Assembly: GCA_030700105.1 (NCBI GenBank)
Contig: JAUYKG010000004.1
Location: 1 to 44,774, forward strand
DNA length: 44,774 nt
Direction: 5' to 3'
DNA from: Candidatus Veblenbacteria bacterium
GTDB taxonomy: Bacteria > Patescibacteriota > Patescibacteriia > Veblenbacterales > UBA10138
Part shown: positions 1 to 43,375 of the stretch, one piece after another
How the letters are laid out: every line of letters begins with the position of its first letter
Numbering within the stretch: position 1 is the stretch's first letter
Notes under the pieces: model-generated
Told to the model about the DNA's origin: nothing
What the model saw: only the letters and a program-made list of their open reading frames with translations
Database searches by the model: none
Translations under genes and position numbers: made by a program

Positions 1-26
1 GCTCTACACTGAGCCTCCGACAGGGC
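1..26 (-). other. possible 5' half of a tRNA-like gene, cut by window edge
   Basis: Read on the minus strand the first bases give a D-arm-like string GCTCAGTGTAGAGC preceded by a possible acceptor strand, as in the 5' half of a tRNA running off the window. The base expected to be U8 is not T, so this may be a degenerate tRNA or chance similarity. No anticodon is visible. Confidence 0.22.
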
Positions 27-90
27 GGCAAATACTAAGCTCATGGAACACTCTTAACCCAGCCCCCAAACAGTCTTGGTTCCTCAAGGG

Positions 91-119
91 TTGACAAATT
101 CAGAGTTTTGATGTATGTT
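91..119 (+). promoter_or_regulatory. sigma70-type promoter for structured RNA and membrane gene
   Basis: A perfect -35 TTGACA (91-96) is separated by 17 nt from TATGTT (114-119). Transcription should start near 126, about 35 nt before the first stem of the structured RNA. It is the only plus-strand promoter seen upstream of the 371 gene. Confidence 0.7.
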
Positions 120-160
120 TATATGATTTGAACATTAACAACTTGAAGAGCAGTGCTTCG

Positions 161-315
161 TTCCCACCACCCTATGGAGGGGAGAAGCGGTTGGCAGCAG
201 CTTACGGGTTGGTTCCCGCCAGAGGGGCGGACACTAACCTTAGGCTACGAGCCAATCGTCCGGTGTACTGGCCTTCGGGCAAAGGTACACCACTTCTCCT
301 TCAGGGTAGTGGGAA
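161..315 (+). ncRNA. structured RNA of unknown class (three-way junction)
   Basis: Pairings visible by eye: a closing stem TTCCCACCACCCT (161-173) with AGGGTAGTGGGAA (303-315); a continuation GGAGAAG (181-187) with CTTCTCC (293-299); arm 2 CGGTTGGC (188-195) with GCCAATCG (251-258), itself containing GGTTGGT/ACTAACC and CCGCC/GGCGG; arm 3 GGTGTAC (262-268) with GTACACC (285-291) and an inner GCC-TTCG-GGC. The whole is a three-way junction of about 155 nt. No terminator lies between it and the gene at 371, so it could be a cis-acting leader, or an independent RNA processed from the transcript. I do not see the conserved cores of RNase P, SRP, tmRNA, 6S or the common riboswitches. Confidence 0.6.
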
Positions 316-370
316 TGAAGGAATTAAATAAATTAAAAACAAAATATAAACAATCTTTGAGGAGTAAAAA

Positions 371-772
371 ATGAAAAAATCATTCAAGAAAGCGGGCGTT
401 TTTTCGCTTGATCTACTGGTCTTCTTGAGCCCTCTAGCTATAGCAGTTGTTGTAGGTTCTATACTTGCGGGTGGATATAACAAGTTCAATAGTACAACCC
501 AAATGTACATAGCCTATGACGCTGCAATTTTAGCTTTTATTCTGTGGGCGGTCGTTACCTACTTAATGACAAAACTCAGGCGGAGTTGGAGATACGCGAC
601 CGGCATGCTAGCAATCAGTTTTATATTAACTGCCTGCCTCTCACTCATTGAGAGATACGAGACTGGTACGGCAATAATATTTGGTATGCTGTTAATATTC
701 GCCATAGCCTCCTTAATAACTGGCTGGAGCGAGATTAAAAATTGGACCTACCACCGAATAAAAAAACAGTAA
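371..772 (+). CDS. small integral membrane protein, function unknown
   Basis: This 133-residue protein has a basic N-terminus (MKKSFKKAGV) followed by about four hydrophobic segments and a basic tail, so it is an inner-membrane protein with no soluble domain. It is one of only two plus-strand protein genes in the window. The start is well supported: GAGGAG sits 7 nt before the ATG, a good Shine-Dalgarno rarely seen elsewhere here. It lies 55 nt downstream of the structured RNA on the same predicted transcript and is followed by a strong terminator, so RNA plus gene form a monocistronic unit. The family is not recognised; the RNA leader suggests control by a ligand or by translation, but that is inference. 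Confidence 0.7.
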   Translation: MKKSFKKAGVFSLDLLVFLSPLAIAVVVGSILAGGYNKFNSTTQMYIAYDAAILAFILWAVVTYLMTKLRRSWRYATGMLAISFILTACLSLIERYETGTAIIFGMLLIFAIASLITGWSEIKNWTYHRIKKQ

Positions 773-42161: not shown

Positions 42162-43217
42162 CTACCCAAGAACCACCAGTTCCTCCCATGGTAATCCAGC
42201 TTTGCCGAAGTGACCGTAGGTGGCCGTGGCGCGGTAAAGGGGGCGCCGTAAACCCAAGCGCTCAATGATAGCCTGAGGGCGAAAATCAAATCGCTGGCGT
42301 ACGTAATCGCTCAAGCTTTCCTGCTTCTCGTTAACCGCTTCAACCATTAGTGGTTCGGCTCGGCCGATGGCATAAGCCACCGAGACTAGACATTCCTTGC
42401 CTAAACCAGCCGCTACCAGATTCTTGGCCACGAACCGACACATGTAGGCACCAGACCTATCCACTTTAGTTGGGTCCTTCCCTGAAAAACAACCCCCACC
42501 ATGTGGAATCAATCCGCCGTAAGTATCTACCATTATTTTGCGGCCGGTAAGTCCGGCGTCGGCCTCAAAACCGCCGGACGTAAATGTACCAGTCGGGTTT
42601 ACCAGCACTTCTATACCCCCCATATCTTGAACTAACGGGGCGATGAGTTTAGCTGTGAGCACCGACCGTAATTCATCCAAGCCAACCTCAGGTGTATGCT
42701 GGGCGCTCACTAAAACCGTGAGCGTGCGGCCATTCTCAGCTGTTACCTGAGTTTTACCGTCAGGCTTAAGCCAGATGATCTCCCCCACGGTGCGCAACTG
42801 CTCCAGCCGACGCGCTAAAGCATGAGCCAATACCACGCCCCGGGGCAAAAATTCCGGCGTTTCGCTCGTGGCATAGCCGTACATAATACCCTGGTCGCCC
42901 GCGCCACCCGTATCCACACCACGCGCTATCTCCGGAGCTTGCTCACTTACGTGCGCCTTAACTTCTATGACATTGCTATAGCCAACCTCAGTATGAATTT
43001 GGCGGGCAATAGCTTCGTAATCAACTTTAGCGCGAGTAGTCACCTCGCCGCCTATAACCACCAAACCATGACTACCCATTACCTCCACACCCACGCGTGA
43101 GGTGGGGTCCTGCCGCAAACATTCGTCCAATACCGCGTCTGAAATTTGGTCGCAGACCTTGTCCGGATGTCCTGAGGTAACGCTTTCCACGGTATATATT
43201 TTTGGCTCAAAACGCAT
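42162..43217 (-). CDS. metK: S-adenosylmethionine synthetase
   Basis: A 351-residue MetK that makes SAM from Met and ATP; I start at MRFEPKIYTVESVTSGHPDK (43217). Motifs: GHPDKVCDQISDAVLDECL with the metal Asp, GAGDQGIMYGYATSETPEF, VRSV-like core LDELRSVLTAKLI, GGCFSGKDPTKVDRSGAYMCRFVAKNLVAAGL with the P-loop-like GGGxFSGKDxxKVDRS (here GGGCFSGKDPTKVDRS). It is somewhat shorter than the usual 380-400. The ATG has no Shine-Dalgarno sequence. A SAM-I-type riboswitch and terminator precede it. Confidence 0.97.
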   Translation of the reverse strand: MRFEPKIYTVESVTSGHPDKVCDQISDAVLDECLRQDPTSRVGVEVMGSHGLVVIGGEVTTRAKVDYEAIARQIHTEVGYSNVIEVKAHVSEQAPEIARGVDTGGAGDQGIMYGYATSETPEFLPRGVVLAHALARRLEQLRTVGEIIWLKPDGKTQVTAENGRTLTVLVSAQHTPEVGLDELRSVLTAKLIAPLVQDMGGIEVLVNPTGTFTSGGFEADAGLTGRKIMVDTYGGLIPHGGGCFSGKDPTKVDRSGAYMCRFVAKNLVAAGLGKECLVSVAYAIGRAEPLMVEAVNEKQESLSDYVRQRFDFRPQAIIERLGLRRPLYRATATYGHFGKAGLPWEELVVLG

Positions 43218-43226
43218 GTTATATAT

Positions 43227-43250
43227 AAAAAATCTTCCCTGGCGGGAAGA
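43227..43250 (-). terminator. riboswitch-controlled terminator upstream of metK
   Basis: TCTTCCC pairs with GGGAAGA (loop GCCA) and is followed by TTTTTT on the minus strand, 10 nt before the metK ATG. The same CTTCCC can pair instead with GGGGAAGATAAT of the riboswitch end (antiterminator). Confidence 0.9.
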
Positions 43251-43261
43251 ATAATACATTA

Positions 43262-43375
43262 ATTATCTTCCCCGGGTAAACCTGGGGCTAGAGGGAGCAC
43301 CTTATCCGCCCAAGGCGAACAGGTTGCTGAAGCGCTCAAACGGGCTAGGTCCCTCGCGCCTACTCTTGATAATAT
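43262..43375 (-). promoter_or_regulatory. SAM-I (S-box) riboswitch controlling metK
   Basis: On the minus strand ATTATCAAGAG, GAGGGAC, GCCCG-TTGAG, CAGCAACC and AAGGTGCT appear in S-box order. P1 is ATTATC (43368-43373) with GATAAT (43262-43267). The 3' strand of P1 can alternatively pair with ATTATTCTTCCC, which opens the terminator. High SAM should stabilise P1 and end transcription before metK. The region 43218-43425 has no other gene. Confidence 0.92.

Follow-up and report, generated by a model that had tools for sequence, protein, structure and literature searches.

A structured RNA upstream of an orphan membrane protein gene

The window (the whole 44,774-nt stretch of Candidatus Veblenbacteria DNA analyzed in this study) starts at a contig end, and just inside that end lies a copy of a structured RNA, preceded by a promoter and a boxA-like motif and followed by a small open reading frame (ORF) (Table 1). 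The predicted fold of positions 120-370 had an energy of -102.7 kcal/mol compared to a mean of -64.5 kcal/mol for dinucleotide shuffles (sd 4.8, z -7.9), and 0 of 200 shuffles folded as well. In this fold the two P1 strands form 26 bp with interruptions, and the tip of P2 carries an insert, CCCGCCAGAGGGGCGGA (215-231, 17 nt), that homologues lack. The original prediction had described a three-way-junction RNA of about 155 nt with a perfect -35 element at 17-nt spacing, no terminator before the gene at 371 and an unusually good Shine-Dalgarno sequence. The junction was recovered with helices P1 to P3, although the length had been set slightly short. The -35 element, the spacing and the Shine-Dalgarno sequence were found as described, and inspection of the sequence between the RNA and the ORF confirmed that no terminator is present. 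Judging from the DNA, the transcription start would be expected near 125-127.

Table 1. Features at the start of the window
Feature	Position	Strand	Details
Sigma-70-type promoter, TTGACA - 17 nt - TATGTT	91..119	+	TTGACA 91-96, TATGTT 114-119
boxA-like motif GAACATTAACAA	130..141	+	9/12 identity to GTTCTTTAACAA
Structured RNA element, three-way junction	153..320	+	About 165-168 nt; folding, covariance search, covariation
P1 5' strand	156..184	+	Pairs with 294-320; invariant core GGAGGGGAG at 176-184
P2 arm	187..259	+	187-220 paired with 226-259; length variable
P3 hairpin	262..291	+	262-269 paired with 284-291, 271-273 with 278-280; GCC-UUCG-GGC cap, 3' AAA bulge
P1 3' strand	294..320	+	UUCUCCUUCAGGGUAGUGGGAAUGAAG
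Shine-Dalgarno sequence GAGGAG	359..364	+	Sequence
Orphan small membrane protein, 133 aa, about 4 transmembrane segments	371..772	+	No Pfam family above cut-off

Distribution of the RNA

By DNA similarity, another copy (98%) was located on contig C44 of the same assembly, and a further one in a relative. A covariance model of these first three copies led to 24 places, including two further ones in the window's own genome, and a rebuilt model of 19 sequences matched 8 of 8 genomes of the taxonomic family, with 1-5 clear copies each (copies in these genomes are called family copies below). Using strict filters, the 19-sequence model matched 24 of 381 genomes of the class, and a third model, class-wide in scope and run with fuller scoring, detected the RNA in 13 of the 38 class genomes sampled. 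Several matches of the class-wide model outside its training set fold to the same core. When this model was applied at the same filters and sensitivity to 37 genomes from elsewhere in the phylum, outside the class, the RNA was found in none of them; as the genomes were comparable and the model and filters unchanged, this result serves as a useful negative control. Phage, plasmid and IMG/VR sources gave no matches to the RNA in tests made at the sequence level only. It should be noted that the E-values of the covariance models are rough, that sampling of the class and phylum was partial and that three loci (L040, L046 and L050) are doubtful members. Matches on the reverse strand at the same sites, which arise because P1 is palindromic, were not counted. 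Tandem copies, 2-3 within about 2 kb, were seen at L076 (G048), L037 (G081), L042 (G126) and L099 (G068), and those in G081 are only 11 nt apart. At another locus, L036 (G313:C3), the sequence about 30-105 nt past the RNA resembles a tRNA or tmRNA 3' end (GTGGTTCAACTCCAC...CACCCA).

Covariation and novelty

In the 19-sequence alignment, which was fitted to the model, changes on both sides were present in 54 of 60 pairs, and 90.4% of cells were paired compared to 36-47% when partners were slid by 1-3 columns. A separate class-wide MAFFT alignment (n=20, mostly other sequences) was not fitted to a model, and loop inserts were removed by hand in some sequences; here 85.9% of cells were paired compared to 38-54% in the slid controls. 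MAFFT could not align P2 across the class, which leaves P1, the P2 tip and P3 as the basis of the class-wide covariation. GGAG/CUCC was invariant in 20 of 20 class-wide sequences, and this pairing rests on conservation alone because it never varies. The consensus P1 consists of a variable part, an A.G-type mismatch, UGGAGG/CCUCCA, another mismatch and about 3 further pairs. Of the two arms at the junction, P2 has a GG..ACU tip, and P3 has a UUCG-type loop together with an AAA bulge. Some members have extra hairpins at the junction, and hairpin inserts in the loops (17 nt in P2 of the window copy, 20 nt in P3 of G007:C26) leave the remaining fold unchanged. Palindromic inserts of the CCGCC..GGCGG or CCTGCC..GGCAGG type were noted in loops at window positions 216-230, in L051 (about 1212-1252) and in the P3 loop of L009, and CCGCC-N-GGCGG occurs 4 times in the window compared to 0.9 expected. 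Perhaps these inserts are small dispersed palindromes that are tolerated in loops.

A scan of the whole window against Rfam 15 at gathering scores found only tRNAs and one SAM riboswitch, all elsewhere than the RNA. When positions 1-500 were searched at E<10 the best match was AfaR, which was rejected as an identity since its 21 bits fall far below the cut-off of 100, and the 16 homologous loci gave no match up to E 0.5. One could still ask whether the RNA is a divergent member of a known housekeeping RNA such as 6S RNA, given that 6S was not detected in five genomes of the family, so that by this test a 6S-like role is unfilled there. However, the 6S model (RF00013) did not match the RNA, no Rfam family was matched by the window copy or the 16 homologous loci, the fold is a three-way junction and not one rod with a bubble at its center, and up to 5 copies are present. 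A divergent housekeeping RNA is very hard to credit on this evidence. A search of open-access papers turned up no description of such an RNA in candidate-phyla bacteria; subscription papers were outside the search.

The original prediction that known classes do not fit was upheld by the Rfam scans, in which nothing credible appeared in the window copy or the homologous loci, and the stems were found to covary strongly across homologues, above the slid controls in both alignments. It had also left a choice between a new cis-regulatory RNA and a free RNA co-transcribed with the membrane protein. The RNA is absent from Rfam 15, covariation in relatives strongly supports its structure, and the free RNA fits better for reasons given below. 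On sequence grounds this is a new structured RNA, with the novelty at the level of the RNA family and the functional kind undetermined. The SAM riboswitch at 43260-43375 (minus strand; 46.1 bits, cut-off 44.4) lies directly upstream of an apparent S-adenosylmethionine synthetase gene (42162-43259, minus strand), which is followed by an MsrB-like ORF.

Promoters and boxA-like leaders

A single such promoter site per kilobase is not significant by itself, and the support for it comes from recurrence upstream of homologues. A promoter with at least 10/12 consensus was present upstream of 16 of 21 family copies compared to 6.7% of shuffles. These have the form TTGACA-16/17-TATnnT, with an exact TTGACA in 14 of the 16 and a 17-nt spacer in all but one. 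Copies outside the taxonomic family had a promoter in 34.6% of cases compared to 4.0% of shuffles; a clear promoter was more often missing among them, and boxA was weak, with none clear. Within the family, a boxA-like motif at 10/12 or better preceded 11 of 21 copies compared to 0.8% of shuffles, and the window copy reaches only 9/12. The same genomes have this motif in the 16S leader and at a site just before 23S rRNA. However, it is not unique to untranslated RNAs because it also precedes a few protein genes.

Downstream genes change while the RNA is kept

The window ORF and its homologue on C44 were 64.5% identical, with a dN of 0.46 and a dS of about 2.6 (saturated), and this comparison indicates a real protein under purifying selection. 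An ORF follows the RNA in about two thirds of family copies, with linkers that vary in length and sequence. A transmembrane segment was present in 11 of 15 downstream ORFs in the family compared to 11 of 41 background small ORFs (p = 0.002), which points to an association with small membrane proteins that is real, if not universal. The enrichment keeps a cis or paired role possible. In most copies, too, a start codon with a good Shine-Dalgarno sequence follows the RNA at 20-76 nt, and G081 and G126 carry tandem copies, as is the case for some riboswitches. All of this would suit a cis-acting leader, meaning a 5' UTR that acts like a riboswitch or binds a protein and in this way governs how the small membrane or secreted protein next to it is translated. 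However, the 9 downstream ORFs tested had no Pfam match above cut-off and were unrelated between loci, and the linkers are unlike one another. Additionally, four family copies (G003:C22, G006:C1, G006:C6 and G004:C51) have no ORF and instead have a good terminator 4-18 nt after the RNA. A riboswitch or other cis leader would be expected to have one pathway downstream consistently, and the unrelated ORFs and ORF-less copies do not agree with this.

One version of the leader explanation has a conserved pyrimidine strand, UUCUCCUYC, pairing with either the purine strand of P1 or the Shine-Dalgarno sequence of the ORF. Pairing of this strand with a Shine-Dalgarno sequence is weak evidence because any CU-rich strand pairs so. 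The terminator-ended copies retain the strand without a Shine-Dalgarno sequence to regulate, and sequestration as a general mechanism was rejected for both reasons. A cis-acting leader is regarded as somewhat unlikely, and the originally proposed cis-regulation of the membrane protein is weakened by the unrelated or replaced ORFs and by the terminator-ended copies.

Four syntenic sites recur between genera: murB-RNA-murC, rarA-RNA-uppS, rpmF-RNA-gyrA and the RNA upstream of prfB. The names of these genes were read from translations, and only UppS was confirmed by Pfam. At these sites the RNA is kept and the downstream ORF is replaced or missing. Between murB and murC (four genomes) the RNA is accompanied by a pair of ORFs of 113 and 118 aa, an unrelated 79-aa ORF or no ORF. 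Between rarA and uppS, the window genome has an ORF after the RNA where G003 has a terminator.

Within a genome, copies from separate loci were 97% alike (C14 and C22 of G003, C2 and C12 of G005) whereas the nearest copies in other genomes were about 65-78% alike. This pattern indicates concerted evolution of the copies within a genome, as for multi-copy RNA genes. The promoter and RNA of window positions 1-320 were 98.8% identical to G000:C44:7952-8271 beside the diverged ORF, which suggests recent homogenization or transfer. Alternatively, the likeness may come from an assembly that mixes two strains; for C24 and C44, both paralogy and an origin from two strains are possible. Near-identical copies at different loci, and the contrast between promoter plus RNA and the ORF, could also be produced by a dispersing non-autonomous element, in which promoter and RNA are copied between intergenic sites with the short genes riding along, and transposase-like genes do adjoin one copy (G005:C12). 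However, the retention of syntenic positions between genera suggests long residence with homogenization, and one fold kept by covariation over great distances would be unexpected for a mere repeat. A dispersing element is considered improbable.

Discussion

The data presented in this study establish an RNA family together with its fold, covariation, copy number, promoter sequences and genomic context, but not its transcription, on which the promoter and terminator sequences bear only indirectly. The description that fits best, and that is held with modest confidence in the absence of expression data, is a multi-copy, class-restricted structured noncoding RNA gene whose transcripts often run into short orphan genes. 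A trans-acting RNA fits better than a cis-regulator because the RNA is conserved, the ORF changes, a terminator occasionally follows and the copies evolve in concert; action in trans is thus inferred to be probable, if not by much. In the model proposed here, each copy would have a strong promoter of its own, in most cases together with a boxA-like leader, and the RNA would fold to a stable three-way junction that most likely serves as a trans-acting scaffold. The invariant core helix (UGGAGG/CCUCCA) and the UUCG/AAA element of P3 may be where one or more proteins bind. Protein binding is an inference and can only be put forward tentatively, with no biochemical partner known. At many loci the transcript would extend through to a short orphan gene that uses the promoter of the RNA and often encodes a membrane or secreted protein.

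A fuller version of the trans-acting model, in which a class-wide RNA with several homogenized copies is co-transcribed with fast-changing small membrane proteins, is rather speculative and on present evidence unlikely. If it is true, the RNA and protein could be an exchangeable pair, pointing to a membrane RNA scaffold or to cell-surface diversification in small-genome bacteria. Given genomes of only about 0.7-1.3 Mb, the strong conservation of an RNA in several copies suggests an important role, and it is inferred that few RNA classes beyond housekeeping ones have been catalogued in reduced-genome bacteria of this kind. The covariance models and the list of copies make the role of the RNA directly testable.

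The nearest known systems resemble the new RNA only in part. raiA and OLE occur mainly in Gram-positive groups. Like the new RNA, raiA/ModT and OLE are covarying and highly structured with an undetermined biochemical role, but the new RNA has no Rfam match, is found in other bacteria and has several copies per genome. It is also about 165 nt long compared to about 600 for OLE. raiA is a conserved noncoding RNA (PMC11706538) and OLE forms a membrane ribonucleoprotein (PMC12265935); the resemblance of the new RNA to them is one of kind only. As in riboswitches, many copies of the new RNA place a three-stem junction ahead of an ORF, and some genomes carry copies in tandem, but the new RNA differs from riboswitches in having no shared downstream function, terminator-ended copies without a gene, and concerted evolution. 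Transcripts of rRNA led by boxA share with it the order of promoter, boxA-like motif and stable untranslated RNA. However, the new RNA is short and no sequence relation to rRNA was seen; there are no data on antitermination. A different boxA-led hairpin leader, GTTTATAGTTCTTTTC...GAAAGAACTATAAACC, was observed in two genera at L112 (G005:C15:79765, minus strand) and L119 (G007:C58:142, plus strand), and is possibly a second uncatalogued structured leader.
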